Below are positions 10,802 to 20,149 of a stretch of 25,868 bases of DNA, in pieces. Each line of letters opens with the position of its first letter. Within the stretch, counting starts at the first letter, position 1. The stretch spans positions 4,235-30,102 of the forward strand of contig NZ_JAKJHX010000060.1 of assembly GCF_021648855.1 (NCBI RefSeq), in the 5' to 3' direction. The stretch is from Tychonema litorale BBK16 (GTDB lineage: Bacteria > Cyanobacteriota > Cyanobacteriia > Cyanobacteriales > Microcoleaceae). The notes under the pieces were generated by a model. It saw nothing but the letters and a program-made list of their open reading frames with translations, did no database searches and had not been told where the DNA came from. Both the position numbers and the translations under genes were made by a program.

Positions 10802-12328
10802 TTAAAAGTTATTGGGATTATTATTGTCGCATTCGGTTAATCTGGCTGACATAGCATCGAGATGTCGCAGCCATTGAACGCCGCCTACCCAACTGCGAGA
10901 TGGCAAATGTCCTGGAGGTGATTTATGGCTGAATTTAAATTGCCCTGAAGCAGTTGTAGAGTTGTATGTCGGCCAGTTTACCCGATCGCAAAATCTGACA
11001 TAATCTCCCTTAACACTTTCGTAGATTTGCTTTTGGATGCTGAAACCAAACCTATCTTGACTGTAGTGCAACCAAAGGCGATCGCAGATTTGCAAGTCTT
11101 CGCATGGTAACTGGGAAATTTGGCTTTTGTCTAGTTGAGTTCCCCCTGTCACGGAGAGAGACTGACACATGACATTCCAAGTTTCTTTGTCTGCTTCTTT
11201 CCACTTTTTGTTTGACAAATAATCCCGTAATTTGGTATAGTCAATACCCTTGACTGAAATCAACTTAATTTCCAAATTTAATATCGAAGAAAACCCCAAA
11301 TTCTCCTGGAAGTTACTAGATATTTCTGTTGGCAAATCCTGAGATTCAGGAGTTTTCAGTAAGTTAAATTTAGCCAATTTAGTGCTATTAATTATATTGG
11401 GAATAATTAGAGTTTTCTGGAGTATAGAGTTGGGGAAAAGCATATTTAATGCTGTATTGATATCTTGCAAAACTTCGACCGCAAAACTGTATCGTTGATT
11501 GAGATTATTTTGGAGCAATTTATCTAAGATTTCGCCTAACTCATTACTAACCATTGTGCCTTTGGGCAGAAACTCACGCCACCACCAACGCTCAGTTTTA
11601 CAATCATACATATCCAAGGGAGGAACTTGGGTCATCAGGCGAATACAGGTGACACCTAAACTATAAAGATCGCTTGCCGGAAATACTTTTCCTCGCATTT
11701 GTTCGGGAGCTAAATAATCCTGGCTACCGATTAAAGTTGCTGGACGAAGTAAGGCTGTATCTGTGAGCACTTTAGCAATGCCGAAGTCGATCAATACTGG
11801 TTTGTTATCGGACTGGCGACGGATAATATTTTCGGGTTTGATGTCGCGGTGAATGACGCGATGATCGTGGATGAATTGCAAGACAGGCAATAAGTCTTGC
11901 AACAATTCCCAAATCTGATGTTCATTATAGATACTCTCATCTAATTCCTGTTTAAGTGTCAGCCCATCAATAAATTCTTGAACTAAATAAATTTGGCCTT
12001 CTTGTTCAAAACAAGCTAACAAATTCGGAATTTGGGGATGATTACCGAGTTCGTCTAAACGGACGGCTTCTTGATGAAATAATTCTAGTGCTTTGTTGAA
12101 AATGTCTGGATCGCGATCGTAAAATTGAAATTGCTTGACTGCACATCGGGGGTGGGATGGGATGTCTTCATCGATTGCTAAGAAAGTTTTGCCAAATCCA
12201 CCTTTACCCAGAGTTTGTATGGGACGATACCGCTGTCTAAGCAATAGATTAGAGCCGCAGTTTACGCAAAGTTGGGCAGTGCTAGAGTTTTGAGGGATTT
12301 CACATTTTGGGTTAATACAGTAGCTCAT
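10802..12328 (-). CDS. Serine/threonine protein kinase with N-terminal zinc ribbon and C-terminal GUN4 domain
   Basis: 508 residues. Residues 1-25 form a CxxxxC...CxxC zinc ribbon (Cys4, 9, 21, 24). The Hanks-type kinase domain (~34-295) has GKGGFG, Lys65 in AVKQF, Asp162 in HRDIKPEN and the DFG Asp181, so it should be active. Residues ~361-492 match a GUN4 domain: KWKEADKET, LQICDRLWLHYSQDRFGFSIQ, and SPPGHLPS. GUN4 binds porphyrins and stimulates Mg-chelatase in photosynthetic organisms; kinase-GUN4 fusions are known in cyanobacteria, but their targets are poorly understood. A tetrapyrrole-sensing kinase is inferred. The next genes downstream are catalase and cbiX-cobA, a suggestive tetrapyrrole context, though the catalase terminator argues against one operon. 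Confidence 0.93.
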   Translation of the reverse strand: MSYCINPKCEIPQNSSTAQLCVNCGSNLLLRQRYRPIQTLGKGGFGKTFLAIDEDIPSHPRCAVKQFQFYDRDPDIFNKALELFHQEAVRLDELGNHPQIPNLLACFEQEGQIYLVQEFIDGLTLKQELDESIYNEHQIWELLQDLLPVLQFIHDHRVIHRDIKPENIIRRQSDNKPVLIDFGIAKVLTDTALLRPATLIGSQDYLAPEQMRGKVFPASDLYSLGVTCIRLMTQVPPLDMYDCKTERWWWREFLPKGTMVSNELGEILDKLLQNNLNQRYSFAVEVLQDINTALNMLFPNSILQKTLIIPNIINSTKLAKFNLLKTPESQDLPTEISSNFQENLGFSSILNLEIKLISVKGIDYTKLRDYLSNKKWKEADKETWNVMCQSLSVTGGTQLDKSQISQLPCEDLQICDRLWLHYSQDRFGFSIQKQIYESVKGDYVRFCDRVNWPTYNSTTASGQFKFSHKSPPGHLPSRSWVGGVQWLRHLDAMSARLTECDNNNPNNF

Positions 12329-12644: not shown

Positions 12645-12718
12645 GGCGAGCGTAGCCAAGTGGTTAAGGCAGTGGTTTGTGGTACCACCATTCGTGGGTT
12701 CAATTCCCATCGTTCGCC
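12645..12718 (+). tRNA. tRNA-His (anticodon GTG)
   Basis: The full cloverleaf can be drawn. A seven-base acceptor stem pairs GCGAGCG (12646-12652) with CGTTCGC (12711-12717), including one G-T wobble. The anticodon stem GTGGT/ACCAC closes a TTGTGGT loop with anticodon GTG at 12679-12681. The T-arm reads CGTGGGTTCAATTCCCATCG. The extra 5' G at 12645 facing C at 12718 is the histidine-specific G-1:C73 pair. CCA is not encoded. Confidence 0.97.
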
Positions 12719-12809
12719 CTTTCAAGTCCATCAAGGGATTCGTCCCGTGAGTAATACCTGAATTAGTCTTAACATGACTAAGGAATCTTTTATTCAACAT
12801 CAGGCCTAG

Positions 12810-13041: not shown

Positions 13042-16000
13042 ATGCCAGCTTTACTAGCAGAAGATTGGGGATATAAATTTACTGGAAATCGAGCGATTAA
13101 TAAGTTTATTCGCGATGTTGAAGGAGAAGCAGCTTTAGCAAAATATTGTGATTGGGAATCCAAAGAGCGTGCCGAAGTTTTGATGTCTGATATTGTCAGT
13201 AAATCCCACAACCTTTTCTACGTGCGTCGCCAACAGGTAAATCAGAGATTTGCCGAAGAAGAAATCTGGGAATTAATCATTGCTACCGATCAAGATGATT
13301 TTGAATTACCGGAATTGTTGCAAAAAGCCGATCGCACTTTACGATTATTAGCTTGTGTACGCTTTGAAGATGGCATTGGCGGTTTAAAGTTACTTGATGC
13401 TGGTTTAGTACATCGCCTCAGAGGTAATAAGGATGGGTATGTTTTACCACAAAAGTTGCGACTTTTAGGCAATAGTAAAGCAGGTATTCCTCGAAAGTCG
13501 ATCGCCCGCGTACAACAATTACCATTTTGGGACGATAGACACATCCCAACTACGGAACAACTCAAAGTTTGGCACACTTTTTTGAAGGTTGAAAAACGCA
13601 TTGCTGAAGCCCGTCAGTTTTGCGTCCCTTTTCGAGGTCATAATTACGGTTCTAGTCTCAAAATCATTACTTTAGAAATTGATTCTCGTTCCGCAACTCT
13701 GGATGGTTATGATGAAAATTCCTTAGAGTTAGGCGATTTTCGAGAAAGGCTAAAAAAGGCGCGCAATGAAGAAATTACCCTATTTGATTCTGCACCAGGA
13801 AGTAGAGGAAATCGCGATGGAGAGAAGTTAGGAAGTATCACGGAAGTTGACTTTGAGCATAGCAAATTACGCATCAAATTAGATCTAGATTTGGCATCGC
13901 GTATGGCTGGCGATCGATATTTCTTGCCTAAACAAGGTTTTTTGTATTTTGAGGCTGCTGGGGATATCAGTCAGATCAAACGCAAAGAGCAAGCTTTGAA
14001 AATGTTGACAGATGGCCGTGCTCAAAACCCCTATTTGAGTGACTTTTTATTCGATGCAACTCAAGCCAGACTGCCACAAAAAAGTATTAAGTTAGATCGA
14101 GAAAACTTATTGAATCGCAATGCTAATACTGACCAAATTGCTGCTGTAGAAGCCGTGCTGTCGGCAAAGGATTTAATTCTGATTCAAGGCCCGCCGGGAA
14201 CCGGAAAGACTACAGTGATTGCCGAGATTTGTTATCAAATTGCCCGTCTGGGTGGCAAAACGCTGATTGCTTCTCAGGCTAATTTAGCTGTAGATAATGC
14301 TTTGAGTCGGTTGGTACACAATCCGGCGATTCGGGCGTTGCGGAAGGGAAAAGCTCATAAGGTGCAGGAAGAAGGGCAGCCGTTTTTGGAGGAAAATGCG
14401 ATCGGCACTTGGCTACAAAATACTGCCACTGATTGCGAACAAAAACTCTTACAGCGCCAGAAAAATGTCATATATGTGCGGAAGTTGTTAGCAGAATCTG
14501 AACGATTTGCAGCTTATTTTACCGCCGAATCAGAATTGCATAATCAACAAAAACATCTGTATAGTAGCAAGGCAAGTCTGGAGGCTAACTGCAATCACCA
14601 AGAAACAGCATACCAAGAAAGTTTGACACAAAAAAACGAAATTGAATCTTTATTTTTTGGATTAGAAAGTCTCCTGGCTGCACCGAAGGTTGATTGGGAA
14701 TCTCCAGAAATAACGGAATTTTTGCCCAGACTGAGACCATTTTCAGAAGGCAACATTTTAGTAGAAAACTTTCTGGCAAATGTGCGGATTGCCGCTAACA
14801 ATGCTACTCAAATTGGTTTCAATCGCCCTGCTTGCGGTGCTTTTGGGATTGCGGTTTGGTTGCGGGAAACTGTAGCGCCCCAAATATTAGAATTTAAGAC
14901 GGCATTTGATTGTGCTGATGATGCTTGTCAGGCTATGTCAGGGGTTGGGGAATCGCTGCTGGTGTCGCGACAGATTTCTGATAGGTTGAATCAGCTACAA
15001 TTGGGCGATCGGCAAAATCAGACAAATCGCCACAATTTAGAGCAGAAAATCCAGAATTTGGAACTACGAAAAGCAGAAATTGCCACGGTTGTTGTCGCCG
15101 TTGCAGAGTGGATTCAGACAGCCGATACTCAACTGTATGAAGTTGTGAAATCTTGTTTGGAAACGGGGGTACTGCTCACCGATGAGATGGTAGAATTGCC
15201 TGTGGGATTGTTGAAAATTGCCCGATCGCTCAAATTGCCGATCGTTCCACCCAAATGGAAAGTCAGTTTGCCCGATTTAGAGCGCTTGCAAAAGGCGATC
15301 GCCCATGAAGCCAGCGCAGGTTTTAAGGACATTCAAGGGCAACAATTCCGGTTTAGCGAGTTTTTGCACCTAAATTTGAATCAAACGCCGATCGTGCTCT
15401 CTGTGGGCGATCGCACTCAATGGCAACAACTAGCCAAAGACTTTGATAACTACTCCAAAGTCGCTCCCAGTCAGCGCAAATTCATCATTGAAAAAGCTCA
15501 CACTTTATTCACTAATATTCAACAAACTTACAGTGCATCTTTACAGGCTAATAATATCCAGAATACCTTAGAACGCCTCGCCAAAGAATTGCTGCATAGC
15601 ATCCTCGGAAATGCACGGGAATGTATGGTTCCCCTAAAAACCGAAACTGAACAGCAACTACAAAAACAGCACCAGTTATTAGATAGACTCAACTCAAATT
15701 TAAACCAGCCAGAAATATCCGCCCTTCAACATCAATTAGCCACAGCCCAGGAAGCAACAAATTCAAAAATCGACGAAGTTACTAATTTATTACTGGCAAT
15801 TGTCGAACAGCCAAATGCACCTGAAAAATTACGGATTCTAGCAGAACAATATATTTCCCAGAAATCTAATATTTGGGAACAGTCACAGCAATTCATGAAG
15901 CAAGTTGACACTTGGAAAGCAAGTGCAGTGCAGCTTGAAAGTTCCCTTTCCGACTTAGATGCTTTCGGTATTTTGACTATCATCAAAGATAGTCTAAATG

Positions 16001-17346
16001 AGCATTTATCTCCACTGCAAATAGCCTCCGAAAAATCTCTACAGAAACTCGAAGAACTTCAAAAAGAATTGAGCGAAATTCTAGCTCAACTCGATCAACA
16101 ACAGCCAACACCAGCCTTAATGATTGAGAGAAATTGGTGGGAATCAGCATGGAAACATATCCCCGATAAATCCCAATTAGAAATTCCAACTGCGGGATTA
16201 TTCGCTATGGAGTTTCTACGCAAAATTAAGCGTCAATTCAAAAATTGGCAACGAGAATTAGAAGCAGACGAAATCGAACTAAATCGCTCTCAAAATTTCG
16301 TTACAGACTGGATAGAAAAGCTCCGAAATCCATCAGAAAAAGACCAAAATGATTTAAAGCAAATTTATATAGACAACGCCAACGTTATTGGTATTACTTG
16401 CGTACAAGCAGCCAGTTTCGACTTTAGCAAAAACTTTCCCAGTTTTGATGCAGTCATCATTGACGAAGTTAGTAAATGTACTCCTCCAGAGTTATTAATC
16501 CCCGCATTGAAAGGTAAAAAATTAGTATTAGTAGGCGATCATAGACAATTACCGCCAATGTTCGATCGCAATACCATTGATGATATCGCCGAAGAAATCG
16601 GCTGTACCGGAGACGAACTAAGTTTCATCAAAGAATCCCTATTCAAAACTTTGTTTGAAAATGCCAATGACAGCATCAAACAAATGCTGACAACTCAATA
16701 CCGAATGCACCCCCAAATCATGGGAGCAATCAATCAATTCTATGAGCAAAAACTCAACTGTGGCATTACCGAAGCAGACGAAAAACGCGCTCACAACCTC
16801 CCAGGTAAAATTATTCAAGATACCAATCACATCCTCTGGGTGAAAACACCAATTGGACAAGGATTTGAAGAAGAAAGAAATGGAACTTCGCGCTTGAATG
16901 TCAAGGAAGTTGATGCAATTGAGTGTTTGTGTCAGCAAATGGAAAGAGCTTGGTATCCCAAGGTTGCTGACGGCAAACCCCCGAAAGAAATCGGAATCAT
17001 TACATTTTATGGCGCTCAATTGAGATTAATTCAAGATACAATAGAACCAGAAAAGTTTCCTTCTTTGAGTATCCGTACTGGGACTGTTGACATATTTCAA
17101 GGCATGGAAAGACCTGTGATTATTGTCAGCACAGTGTGCAATAATAACAGAGGCGACATTGGATTTGCTAAGGAACCGGAACGGGTGAATGTGGCATTTT
17201 CCCGTGCTCAAGAATTGTTGGTAGTTGTTGGCTGCCATGATTTGTTCACCCAACAAACAGGTACTGTCGGTAAAATGTATCAGGAAGTTTCAAAAATTGT
17301 GCGTTATTTTGGAGGTTTTGTAGATGTTTCTAACGTCATCAACTAA
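13042..17346 (+). CDS. Large DNA2/NAM7-type superfamily 1 helicase (AAA_11/AAA_12)
   Basis: 1434 residues from ATG 13042, the first start after an in-frame TGA at 13030. SF1 motifs are clear: Walker A GPPGTGKTT (383-391), Walker B DEVS (1141-1144), GDHRQLPPMF (motif III), QYRMHP (motif IV), GTVDIFQGMERP (motif V) and RVNVAFSRAQELLVV (motif VI). Between motif Ia and Walker B lies a ~700-residue helical, coiled-coil-rich insert; residues 1-370 are an accessory region without a recognised motif. Such helicases unwind nucleic acid 5' to 3' and recur in anti-phage systems (for example Mokosh). The 3' end overlaps the PLD-protein start by 23 bases, so the two are translationally linked and probably act together. 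The nucleic-acid type (RNA or DNA) is unknown. Confidence 0.93.
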   Translation: MPALLAEDWGYKFTGNRAINKFIRDVEGEAALAKYCDWESKERAEVLMSDIVSKSHNLFYVRRQQVNQRFAEEEIWELIIATDQDDFELPELLQKADRTLRLLACVRFEDGIGGLKLLDAGLVHRLRGNKDGYVLPQKLRLLGNSKAGIPRKSIARVQQLPFWDDRHIPTTEQLKVWHTFLKVEKRIAEARQFCVPFRGHNYGSSLKIITLEIDSRSATLDGYDENSLELGDFRERLKKARNEEITLFDSAPGSRGNRDGEKLGSITEVDFEHSKLRIKLDLDLASRMAGDRYFLPKQGFLYFEAAGDISQIKRKEQALKMLTDGRAQNPYLSDFLFDATQARLPQKSIKLDRENLLNRNANTDQIAAVEAVLSAKDLILIQGPPGTGKTTVIAEICYQIARLGGKTLIASQANLAVDNALSRLVHNPAIRALRKGKAHKVQEEGQPFLEENAIGTWLQNTATDCEQKLLQRQKNVIYVRKLLAESERFAAYFTAESELHNQQKHLYSSKASLEANCNHQETAYQESLTQKNEIESLFFGLESLLAAPKVDWESPEITEFLPRLRPFSEGNILVENFLANVRIAANNATQIGFNRPACGAFGIAVWLRETVAPQILEFKTAFDCADDACQAMSGVGESLLVSRQISDRLNQLQLGDRQNQTNRHNLEQKIQNLELRKAEIATVVVAVAEWIQTADTQLYEVVKSCLETGVLLTDEMVELPVGLLKIARSLKLPIVPPKWKVSLPDLERLQKAIAHEASAGFKDIQGQQFRFSEFLHLNLNQTPIVLSVGDRTQWQQLAKDFDNYSKVAPSQRKFIIEKAHTLFTNIQQTYSASLQANNIQNTLERLAKELLHSILGNARECMVPLKTETEQQLQKQHQLLDRLNSNLNQPEISALQHQLATAQEATNSKIDEVTNLLLAIVEQPNAPEKLRILAEQYISQKSNIWEQSQQFMKQVDTWKASAVQLESSLSDLDAFGILTIIKDSLNEHLSPLQIASEKSLQKLEELQKELSEILAQLDQQQPTPALMIERNWWESAWKHIPDKSQLEIPTAGLFAMEFLRKIKRQFKNWQRELEADEIELNRSQNFVTDWIEKLRNPSEKDQNDLKQIYIDNANVIGITCVQAASFDFSKNFPSFDAVIIDEVSKCTPPELLIPALKGKKLVLVGDHRQLPPMFDRNTIDDIAEEIGCTGDELSFIKESLFKTLFENANDSIKQMLTTQYRMHPQIMGAINQFYEQKLNCGITEADEKRAHNLPGKIIQDTNHILWVKTPIGQGFEEERNGTSRLNVKEVDAIECLCQQMERAWYPKVADGKPPKEIGIITFYGAQLRLIQDTIEPEKFPSLSIRTGTVDIFQGMERPVIIVSTVCNNNRGDIGFAKEPERVNVAFSRAQELLVVVGCHDLFTQQTGTVGKMYQEVSKIVRYFGGFVDVSNVIN
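17311..17315 (+). promoter_or_regulatory. Shine-Dalgarno site of the PLD gene inside the helicase ORF
   Basis: GGAGG sits 8 bases before ATG 17324, embedded in the last codons of the helicase gene. It fixes the start of the downstream gene and supports coupled translation. Confidence 0.8.
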
Positions 17347-19222
17347 ACCAATTGATTCTAATTTAAGCGGGATTGTCGAACAAATCGAGGAACAAAATCC
17401 CGGTTTGTCTGTTTTGGCGGCTCGTCAATTCCGATGTGCGAAGCGACAAACACCTTTGGAGGTGACAATTAGCGAACCTCGCAAATTCAACGTGTTGGAA
17501 GAGTTTATATTACGGGCTTGTATCGAGTTTGTACCTGCACCAACATTAAAAGAATTGGCTAATTTGCTGGGGCTAGACGAGATTTTCGTGAAAACTACGG
17601 CGACTACTTTGATTAGTTTGGACATCTTGGAGGTGTCTGAAATGGGCAAAATTGCGATCGCACCGGGAGGACGAGAATTTTGCGATTTAGGTGCTGTGAG
17701 TAAGTCGCAAGTTCAATCGATTTATGCCATCTCTGACCCATTAAATCAAACTCTTACCTTTAAACTCGATTCTCTACGGACAGAAACCATCGACTTACCA
17801 GATTTAGCAGATTTAATATTAATAGAACATCAAATTTCTGATATTGCCAATTTAAGTATAACAGAAATCCAGCCACTAATTCAAGATTCTGGCTTAGGAA
17901 TTCACATCCCAGCCGAGGGTAAAATTGTCACCAAGTGCGACATAGTTGGCGACGATTTGAATATTTGGCAGACAGTCTCAATTTTTGTATTGTTTGATGC
18001 CATCGAAAATCAGACTAAGATTCAAGTACGACAGGGAAAGCAAATATTAGAAACAGCATCAAACTTGTTGAATGAACTTGAATCCCAACAAAAACTTTCC
18101 TTAAATGACCTATGCAAATTAACCGAAGATGTTATTCTGCAAGAACAAGAGACTATCCTTGTCAAAAGAAATCAAGAAGTTGCAACGCGATTAGAAAAGA
18201 TCCAAACAGAAGCACTGAATATCGTCAAAGCAACTCAAACTAATTCTGAAACTAATACTTCCAAATCCGCAACAGAAACTGGTACAGTCATTTTCTTGCG
18301 CGATAGTGAAATTCGAGAGGACTTTCTGAATACCATCAAATCTGCACAGCAAAACATTTTCATTTATTCCCCTTGGGTGACTTCAGAAGTCGTAGACCGT
18401 GAATTTATTAAAATACTTCAAAATCGAGCCGATAGCGGTGTTTGGACAGCCATCGGGCACGGAATTTCCCGCAAACAAGCAGAAGAAGATAGGCCAGTAC
18501 CACCAGGACTTGAGGATAAACTTCGACAAGTTAAAACACCGGAAGGATTATCAGCGGTACAGATATTTTGGTTAGGAAATTCCCACGCTAAGGAAGTAAT
18601 TGTTGATGGTAAAATTTACTTATCCGGTTCTCACAACTGGCTTTCCTATCGGGGAGATAGACTACCACGGGGCGAAACTACTTGCAAAGTGACAACCCCC
18701 AATTTAGTCAAAGAAGCGATGGAATATATGGCTAATCGTTTTCAATCTCGTGCATTGGAAGTTTGGCAAGAAGCACTAATCGACAGAGATATAACTATTG
18801 CTGAAAAGTCTTTGAGTTTGTGGGGTGCTTTGGGTATGGAATCGGAAGCGCTGCAACAATTACAGCAGGAAAATTGGCTAGAACTTTATTCGATGTGGTT
18901 GAAATTAGTCTGTCAAGGTTTAAGATCGAAACAGCTTTCACCGCTGTCGGATTGTTTGGGGAAAGCGTTGGGGTTATTAAGTCAAATCTCTCCTGATAAT
19001 GCGGATATTGAGGGGTTGCGGGAGGGATGGCAGAAGGTTGTAGGTGCGATCGCAATTCTTGACTCAAAAACTGCCATAACACTGCTAAATGAGGAATTTT
19101 GGGCAGAGTTTGTCCGACTGGGAATAGCTGAAGAATCGGTGAAGTCTCCAGAAGAATTCATTTCAAAATATAGTAGTTCTAAGGCACATAAACAACCTTT
19201 GAAGAAGAAAATTAATAAGTGA
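17324..19222 (+). CDS. Winged-helix/phospholipase D-like nuclease protein, partner of the helicase
   Basis: 632 residues; start fixed by GGAGG and a 23-base overlap with the helicase. Residues ~50-115 resemble a winged-helix DNA-binding fold. A helical linker (~230-320) precedes a PLD-like domain (~325-480) with one HKD motif: His421, Lys423 and Asp428 in HAKEVIVD, followed by GSHNWLS. The preceding half (FIYSPWV, then AIGHGIS) lacks a full second HKD, so activity would need dimerisation, as in single-HKD nucleases. The C-terminal ~150 residues are helical with no known motif. PLD-superfamily nucleases cut DNA or RNA without metal. With the helicase next to it, a defense role like Mokosh type II (helicase and PLD fused in one protein) is inferred; here the two are separate genes. 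Confidence 0.85.
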   Translation: MFLTSSTKPIDSNLSGIVEQIEEQNPGLSVLAARQFRCAKRQTPLEVTISEPRKFNVLEEFILRACIEFVPAPTLKELANLLGLDEIFVKTTATTLISLDILEVSEMGKIAIAPGGREFCDLGAVSKSQVQSIYAISDPLNQTLTFKLDSLRTETIDLPDLADLILIEHQISDIANLSITEIQPLIQDSGLGIHIPAEGKIVTKCDIVGDDLNIWQTVSIFVLFDAIENQTKIQVRQGKQILETASNLLNELESQQKLSLNDLCKLTEDVILQEQETILVKRNQEVATRLEKIQTEALNIVKATQTNSETNTSKSATETGTVIFLRDSEIREDFLNTIKSAQQNIFIYSPWVTSEVVDREFIKILQNRADSGVWTAIGHGISRKQAEEDRPVPPGLEDKLRQVKTPEGLSAVQIFWLGNSHAKEVIVDGKIYLSGSHNWLSYRGDRLPRGETTCKVTTPNLVKEAMEYMANRFQSRALEVWQEALIDRDITIAEKSLSLWGALGMESEALQQLQQENWLELYSMWLKLVCQGLRSKQLSPLSDCLGKALGLLSQISPDNADIEGLREGWQKVVGAIAILDSKTAITLLNEEFWAEFVRLGIAEESVKSPEEFISKYSSSKAHKQPLKKKINK

Positions 19223-19375: not shown

Positions 19376-19409
19376 TGGTGTTATTGGTAATTGTGTTGAG
19401 ATTTTGCCT

Positions 19410-19826
19410 GTGTCTGCCAAAGATACCTTTCACGAATCCGTAAAACGAGCACTTCAAAAAGAACAGTGGGTAATTACTGCCGATCCACTAAGGTTTGAGT
19501 TTGGTAATGTTAACTTTCAGGTCGATTTGGGAGCAGAAAGGTTAGTTGCGGCTGAGCGAGGAGGGGAGAAAATTGCAATCGAAATCAAAAGCTTTCTCAA
19601 CCCCTCTGTGATTACAGACTTTTATGCTGCATTGGGGCAATTTCTCAGTTATCGGCTTGCCTTGGCATCGGTTCAACCCGATCGCAAATTGTATTTGGCA
19701 GTTCCATTTGAAGTGTATAGAACATTTTTTCAGTATGAGTTTACTCAAAATGCGGTACAACAGTATCAGGTTTTGCTAATTGTATACGATCCAGGAAATG
19801 AGGTAATTGTGCAATGGACAAACTAG
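19410..19826 (+). CDS. xisH: XisH-family protein (fdxN element excision controlling factor type)
   Basis: 138 residues from GTG 19410, which gives the usual M-(S/P)-A-K-D-x-F-H beginning of XisH; an in-frame TTG at 19404 would add two residues. The fold is restriction-endonuclease-like: Asp39 and the IEIK motif (Glu58, Lys60) form a PD-(D/E)xK-type core. XisH and XisI were named in Anabaena, where with XisF they are needed for excision of the fdxN element, but many cyanobacteria carry numerous XisHI pairs without that element, so the function here is open. It overlaps xisI by 13 bases. No XisF recombinase is present, so an excision role is unlikely in this window. Confidence 0.92.
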   Translation: MSAKDTFHESVKRALQKEQWVITADPLRFEFGNVNFQVDLGAERLVAAERGGEKIAIEIKSFLNPSVITDFYAALGQFLSYRLALASVQPDRKLYLAVPFEVYRTFFQYEFTQNAVQQYQVLLIVYDPGNEVIVQWTN

Positions 19827-20149
19827 CTCAATATCGTCAGTACGTTCAGACATTAATCACCCGTTATGCCGAAGATGATGTTTCTGATGATGAAGTCGAA
19901 GTGCAACTTATCTGCGACACAGAACGAGATCATTATCAGTGGATGAATGTCGGCTGGGAACACTTGAACCGGATTTATCGAAGCATCATTCACATTGACA
20001 TTAAAGATGGAAAAATCTGGCTTCAACAAAATTTGACCGAGCAAAATCCTGCGGAGGAATTAGTTGCAATGGGAGTCCCTAGGGAGGACATTGTTTTGGG
20101 ATTGCACCCCCCATATAAACGGCCGTATACCGATTATGGTGTCGCGTAA
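19814..20149 (+). CDS. xisI: XisI-family protein
   Basis: 111 residues from ATG 19814, with GAGG about 9 bases upstream inside xisH. The family pattern is complete: an N-terminal helix (LAQYRQYVQTLITRYAE), the strand WMNVGWEHLNRIYRSIIHIDIKDGKIWLQQN, and the end LVAMGVPREDIVLGLHPPYKRPYTDYGVA. XisI is usually encoded right after XisH and is assumed to be its obligate partner. It may inhibit or guide the nuclease-like XisH, in the manner of a toxin-antitoxin or defense pair; that is inference. Confidence 0.93.
   Translation: MDKLAQYRQYVQTLITRYAEDDVSDDEVEVQLICDTERDHYQWMNVGWEHLNRIYRSIIHIDIKDGKIWLQQNLTEQNPAEELVAMGVPREDIVLGLHPPYKRPYTDYGVA

Follow-up and report, generated by a model that had tools for sequence, protein, structure and literature searches.

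Closest Described Systems and the Pair in Tychonema litorale

Mokosh type I is described as a split two-gene form in which a kinase is given as an additional domain (available text of PMC11672841). Here we consider a gene pair of this kind in Tychonema litorale BBK16, which lies in a stretch of 25,868 nucleotides (the whole of which is called the window below, with positions counted from its first letter). The pair comprises a helicase of superfamily 1 (SF1) and, downstream of it, a partner with a winged helix and a phospholipase D (PLD) nuclease domain. Comparison with relatives shows that evolution, as read from their sequences, has preserved the helicase and the winged helix at one constant place in the chromosome. 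For its conserved task the pair seems not to require the nuclease, and PLD would be its dispensable part.

PADLOC profiles identified the window helicase as MkoA (2e-114) and the window partner as MkoB (7.7e-30), bearing out the kinship to Mokosh proposed in a first-pass annotation of this DNA. The overlapping helicase and HKD nuclease with a winged helix described there are real as well (1434 aa and 632 aa, 23-bp overlap, HKD intact). The same annotation took the split arrangement for a possible distinct subtype, which did not hold up: the two-gene form is known Mokosh type I, as the available text of PMC11672841 has it, and the PADLOC MkoB model spans residues 45-495 of the window partner, winged helix included. 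Matches to MkoC of Mokosh type II were weaker (8.2e-34 and 1.3e-13); type II has the same two domains, but there they are fused in one protein, while the window has two genes.

The likeness to type I lies in the separate adjacent genes for an SF1 COG1112-type helicase and a PLD nuclease, with the HKD residues intact in the window. There are differences, however. The window helicase has no Ser/Thr kinase domain (the best 25 of its 26 matches include no kinase family), the pair sits at a fixed chromosomal locus, and the nuclease is missing in most same-genus relatives, the separate PLD gene of type I being present in the window and absent in 26 of the 28 genus genomes that have the pair. By its domain content, the window pair is a type-I-like member of Mokosh without the kinase domain. 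The window's two kinases match the PADLOC MkoA model PDLC03920. The best 25 of their 34 and 37 matches do not include PDLC03921, so MkoA proteins may not always have a kinase. A NERD domain, listed for Mokosh type I in the available text of PMC10952713, was not seen in a Pfam scan of ten window proteins; further-upstream open reading frames (ORFs), among them a 1164-aa TPR protein, lie outside that scan. Mokosh is also said, in the accessible part of another source, to degrade viral transcripts and is tied there to the piRNA pathway (PMC11291487), which we do not use as support here. No description of a PLD-less Mokosh was found in literature titles, abstracts and listed terms, most subscription papers being beyond reach.

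The CoCoNuT cnuHE module is similar in that a UPF1-like helicase with a coiled-coil insert (CnuH) is paired with a downstream gene for a winged helix-turn-helix (wHTH) nuclease (CnuE), which is a PLD in type III-C (available text of PMC11090510). The same text presents the pairing of a helicase with a downstream wHTH effector as typical of the wider UPF1-like helicase family, and the wHTH of CnuE is modeled near the coiled-coil insert of CnuH (PMC11090510). In contrast to the window partner, which has one PLD domain, type III-C has two in that account. Neither an McrB-like NxD GTPase (CnuB) nor CnuC, which CoCoNuT types II and III have in the operon, was found among the ten scanned window proteins, which include both immediate neighbors of the pair. 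Hachiman (HamAB) is comparable in that, in the accounts available, a helicase senses the state of a nucleic acid and controls a nuclease partner, but HamB is another helicase and HamA the effector. RecG, a motor of superfamily 2 that is not known to have a wHTH partner, has its N-terminal domain in common with the insert of the window helicase.

A Fixed Locus with and without the Nuclease Domain

In the window's genus, apparently the Microcoleus/Tychonema group (29 genomes), a helicase orthologue was found in 28 genomes at 73-94% identity; the other genome (G009, 84% complete) gave only the RecG match. A 632-aa partner with PLD is encoded in the window genome and G006 only. The other 26 of the 28 genomes encode partners of 295-313 aa that end ahead of PLD, and such forms, which retain the N-terminal part alone (N-only), stop inside or shortly past the stretch leading to the linker helix (residues 268-306). 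The site is marked by a tRNA-His gene upstream of the pair (12646..12719, + strand, a landmark outside the system), found in 21/21 genus loci scanned (21 of 31 core-locus stretches); other flanking genes are shared between the loci as well.

A similar picture emerged in family f33, which to judge by its names is probably Nostocaceae (217 genomes). Partner matches were found in 141 of these genomes, with open frames of at least 540 aa in 84, of 400-450 aa in 8 and of at most 370 aa in 49 (three broken or fragments). Taking open-frame length as a stand-in for domains, this suggests about 84 partners with PLD and 54 without; 49 PLD-less f33 loci were examined directly (29 and 20 further). A PLD-bearing partner (P0116) is encoded in N. 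punctiforme PCC 73102. When genus g81 is set aside, the tree has 31 rows of f33; the gene upstream of the pair is histone-deacetylase-like in 29 of them (18 full-length, 10 N-only and one in which N is followed by the C-terminal domain, N+C), and a gshA-like gene lies downstream in 25 (14 full-length, 10 N-only, one N+C), followed by a SpoU methylase and an M23 peptidase. The flank families were confirmed in a PLD-less and a full-length locus of one genus (L158 and L128, respectively). Two tandem full-length pairs in family f20 (L102-L105) stand between the same histone-deacetylase-like and gshA-like genes, each of which was counted beside two full-length f20 loci, so the site would be older than family f33. 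Genus g81 has a fixed site of its own, marked in 13/13 loci by a 107-aa gene upstream that looks glutaredoxin-like, and all 13 g81 rows in the helicase tree are PLD-less.

These surroundings do not support the defense-island setting anticipated in the first-pass annotation, at least at the loci examined, where the genus pairs lie by tRNA-His and the Nostocaceae pairs by histone-deacetylase-like, gshA-like and SpoU-methylase genes. That annotation had named, as observations that would speak against a defense pair, homologs that always occur outside defense contexts with a known housekeeping role, or two genes that do not occur together. The homologs examined do lie outside defense contexts; no housekeeping role is known for them, and the two genes do co-occur. 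This result concerns the core loci, the surroundings of accessory paralogues having been covered by a few Pfam scans only.

Selection on Pairs without PLD

We compared the ratio of nonsynonymous to synonymous substitution rates (dN/dS) as the median of pairwise NG86 values over pairs with dS of 0.05-1.5, using 23 of the 27 PLD-less loci of the genus. For these N-only loci dN/dS was 0.157 for the helicase and 0.207 for the partner. Corresponding values were 0.160 and 0.274 in g81 (13 loci) and 0.221 and 0.251 for the other N-only loci of f33 (8 loci), and the full-length sets gave 0.107-0.265 for the helicase and 0.143-0.274 for the partner. The five SF1 motifs, Walker A included, were intact in all 44 PLD-less helicases examined, and in 52 of 57 PLD-less loci the helicase was found no more than 6 kb from the partner and in the same orientation. 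To judge from these ratios, the PLD-less pairs are under purifying selection. When two PLD-less pairs were run through PADLOC, the helicase was again identified as MkoA (about 5e-115), while the partner reached MkoB at only 6e-7 and 3e-7.

Direction of the Changes in PLD State

The helicase tree holds 102 rows from 122 loci, split, truncated and duplicate loci having been left out, and L075 was scored as N-only in the first counts despite its different C-terminal domain. The PLD label changes nine times on this tree, or eight times without L075, six of them forced by starred branches. A tree of the N domain (111 rows, L075 included) gave 10 changes, five of them forced, and a careful tree of the window's clade, including seven further full-length partners (77-91%), gave five; one of these seven, P0003, is close to the partner of G006. 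Holding the PLD-bearing core rows of the window's clade together as one clade was rejected (approximately unbiased test, p 0.000135). The part of the window partner comprising PLD and the C-terminal domain (PLD+C) has no nested donor on the tree, and the PLD+C and N trees are mostly congruent, with P0008 and P0009 basal in both.

Several PLD-less partners carry remains of the longer form. N passes straight into C in G331, G374, G431 and G503, as it does with a different junction in G365, G508, G509 and G510; the all-helical C domain was seen retained without PLD in L151, L181 and L183, plus 5/20 further loci. G368 retains the C-terminal tail of its full-length sister at 79% over 19 aa (E 0.0009), as do G391 and G445 at 50%. 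In G464, N is followed by a trace of C that is out of frame, and a C-end motif is found in G350 (E 0.03). The N+C fusions without PLD and the tail scars give the direction of change as loss. Comparison of the relatives shows the PLD nuclease to be, on its sequence pattern, an appendage that was removed on several occasions. A match to PLD or C downstream of the PLD-less partner was found in none of 55 of the 57 loci searched, the other two having a retained C domain (stretches in this search were short at contig ends, e.g., L050, L060, L172 and L178), and PLD was likewise absent next door in 20/20 further PLD-less loci.

Meaning of the Pair and Competing Explanations

We consider it slightly better than an even proposition that the pair is a helicase-winged-helix module for nucleic-acid remodeling to which PLD is attached as a detachable effector. 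In such a module the ATP-driven helicase would engage single-stranded DNA or RNA within a branched or hybrid structure, aided by the RecG-N-like domain of its insert and by the winged helix of the partner, which, by analogy with CnuE and CnuH, may dock on the coiled-coil insert. Where PLD is present it would cut the engaged strand, and where it is absent the pair would remodel the structure without cutting; the target could be phage or plasmid nucleic acid or the cell's own. The broader statement, that MkoA/MkoB-like pairs lacking the nuclease function in filamentous cyanobacteria as chromosomal machines passed on vertically, that PLD was lost (possibly exchanged) at the same locus, and that this helicase family acts by remodeling (e.g., of R-loops or forks) with cutting optional, seems to us evenly poised. 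Helicase-nuclease defense is usually explained by its nuclease, and here the nuclease has been deleted naturally several times, with the helicase and the winged-helix partner kept under selection in the same place, making the helicase half's own role a testable question. There is also a consequence for annotation by profile, as PLD-less pairs could be counted as defense systems or have their partner overlooked.

Ordinary Mokosh type I defense, in which the PLD-bearing form works and the PLD-less pairs are disarmed remnants under weak, temporary selection, is an unlikely account. It draws on the PADLOC matches and on the catalytic motif, HxKxxxxD, which is kept in 59 of 62 PLD-bearing entries (two genes are entered twice), meaning that the nuclease is selected where present; the exceptions are L074, cut by a contig end, and L127 and L142, in which the catalytic lysine is replaced (HxR and HxQ, respectively). 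It also draws on two observations that likewise weigh against the working remodeling module we prefer. Decay is evident in G344 (both genes), G377 (helicase) and G196 (partner), and some of the PLD-less pairs may therefore be relics. The helicase was not seen in the fetched stretch at 7/20 further PLD-less loci (G470, G462, G510, G508, G509, G521 and G520, some at contig ends). Two more points limit the remodeling reading: pairwise dN/dS averages old and recent change and can't exclude recent relaxation, and the lysine replacements fit a dispensable nuclease but also plain decay. Against remnants stand the PLD-less state of 26/28 genus genomes and 13/13 g81 rows, their dN/dS of 0.16-0.27, the presence of all motifs and the fixed loci. 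Housekeeping remodeling of nucleic acids (R-loops, stalled forks, RNA turnover) as the original job, with the Mokosh likeness reflecting family kinship only, is possible but doubtful. The fixed loci adjoin housekeeping genes, the insert holds a RecG-N-like domain, and the nearest solved relatives are SMUBP-2, UPF1, NAM7, DNA2 and SEN1. Conversely, the pair is patchy in f33, where 76/217 genomes have no match, the accessory full-length paralogues at other sites in six genus genomes look mobile, and in L075 PLD is replaced by a different C-terminal domain, as in conflict systems.

A PLD-less ancestor that repeatedly gained PLD from other lineages is very improbable. The tree counts alone would allow it, the genus also has accessory paralogues that bear PLD, and one starred conflict separates the PLD+C and N trees: P0006 joins P0007 in the former only, which implies some recombination. 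However, no donor clade is nested with the PLD+C of the window, the N+C forms and tail scars need loss, and tree rows from eight other families are all PLD-bearing (the query favors these). Several points nevertheless tell against repeated deletion as the full history. Besides that conflict, change counts alone can't separate gain from loss, and the helicase, PLD+C and N-domain trees are quick ones, the careful tree of the window's clade apart. The tail scars span few residues (E 0.0009 to 0.03), having been chosen as the best over the full-length set, and loci outside the window's genus were mostly found with a full-length partner as query, which favors PLD-bearing rows. The PLD-less tails of the genus belong to a single lysine-rich type, similar to how the full-length form ends, and part of the pattern may therefore be a single deletion allele spread by recombination. 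Moreover, when G026 is aligned with G006, the ten leading 400-column windows have a DNA identity of 76-94%, and the three final ones, which cover the helicase end and the partner, have 96, 99 and 89%; between G026 and the PLD-less G025 these final three give 97, 96 and 91%. On these identities the partner region has moved between lineages, and the G026 comparison does not distinguish the PLD state that moved.

Architecture of the Helicase and Its Partner

The helicase gene (13042..17346, + strand, 1434 aa) was assigned as SF1B, UPF1/DNA2-like and MkoA-like from family profiles and similarity to solved structures, the nearest of which by sequence are SMUBP-2 (4e-38), UPF1 (5e-36), DNA2 (5e-33), NAM7 and SEN1. 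Its Walker A half covers residues 361-418 (14122..14295, + strand, GPPGTGKT), and residues 1086-1434 (16297..17343, + strand) make up the second RecA-like half, which contains motifs II-VI. The roughly 625 residues between the two halves form a helical coiled-coil insert (residues 461-1085, 14422..16296, + strand), almost pure helix in an AlphaFold2 model (pLDDT 87.5, pTM 0.50), with helices of 85 and 91 residues. Within the insert, residues 742-886 (15265..15699, + strand) match the N-terminal domain of RecG (NF008170, 2.3e-15). This region has 38% identity over 87 aa to the RecG of the same genome, and residues 741-840 as query found two places only in the genome at E <= 0.01, the helicase itself and RecG. 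The RecG-N-like domain suggests, on sequence similarity, branched-DNA or R-loop substrates. Six other helicases were tried; the match is present in four (L110, L169, L136 and L103), and its absence from the other two (L072 and L077) counts against the proposed module.

An N-terminal IF2_N domain (PF04760) is present in many of the Nostoc-type helicases with a length of about 1490-1506 aa, among them L110 and many of P0145-P0239, and absent from the scanned 1434-aa forms. Longer helicases (L072, L136, L077 and L103) have an N-terminal extension of about 220 aa with a weak NosD-like match at residues 11-110 (TIGR04247, 8e-4 to 1.4e-7). A link between the long extension and PLD was considered and dropped: 26/51 PLD-bearing and 0/51 PLD-less rows have the extension, but the average number of independent, informative pairs is below one (sign test, p 1).

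The partner gene (17324..19222, + strand, 632 aa, MkoB-like) overlaps the helicase gene by 23 bp on the same strand, and a GGAGG Shine-Dalgarno-like site (17311..17315, + strand) lies 8 nt ahead of its start. Its winged helix is Csa3/MarR-like (residues 52-124, 17477..17695, + strand) and is followed by the long linker helix (18125..18241, + strand), the PLD nuclease domain (residues 319-480, 18278..18763, + strand) with its HKD motif H421-K423-D428 (18584..18607, + strand), and the all-helical C-terminal domain (residues 490-622, 18791..19189, + strand). The structure model of the partner has pLDDT 79 and pTM 0.49, and a search of the partner profile against PDB sequences gave no significant match. 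A gap of 0.8-4.8 kb between helicase and partner, seen in several Nostoc loci, is a further point against the proposed module; it occurs in eight loci of genus g94 (L110, L114-L118, L120 and L152), with unrelated genes there in L110 and L118. The partner of L117 is immediately preceded by a repeat of the final codons of the helicase.

Neighboring Genes and Accessory Pairs

An accessory full-length pair was found at other sites in 6/29 genus genomes, one of which is PLD-bearing at the core locus, with 42-55% identity in BLAST pieces, a helicase of 1406-1729 aa and, where no contig end cuts it, a partner of 642-655 aa. An accessory PLD paralogue that serves the PLD-less core in trans would thus not be general, being confined to these six genomes; the whole partner had just one match at E <= 0.001 in each of the single-contig genomes G019 and G021. 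A Spermine_synth-like gene lies upstream of the accessory pairs L069-L074 (scanned in L072 and L073), and a 121-aa ORF separates accessory helicase and partner in L069, L070 and L074, with no Pfam match in L069 and L070. A related helicase in G026 (L075:7196-12335) has a wHTH partner of 489 aa with a non-PLD C-terminal domain that has no Pfam match. By its domain layout, this partner is a swapped effector.

Other neighbors of the core locus were considered as candidates for a role in the system. The tRNA-His gene as an integration scar is unsupported, given its fixed position in all scanned loci. A XisH-XisI pair (19404-20149 of the window) adjoins the locus in part of the genus, where both genes, XisI alone or neither is present, and the window genome has eight full XisH copies and three weaker pieces. 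XisH-XisI as a replacement nuclease was rejected as a rule, the pair standing beside both PLD-bearing (window, G006) and PLD-less loci and being absent from many. A kinase-GUN4 gene (10802-12328 of the window), a recurrent neighbor in the genus, was not supported as a detached MkoA kinase: it is divergently oriented, lies beyond the tRNA and has its cluster in genus loci only. The PADLOC model PD-T4-6 matches almost all of this gene (624 bits), probably because that model is over-broad for cyanobacterial kinases.

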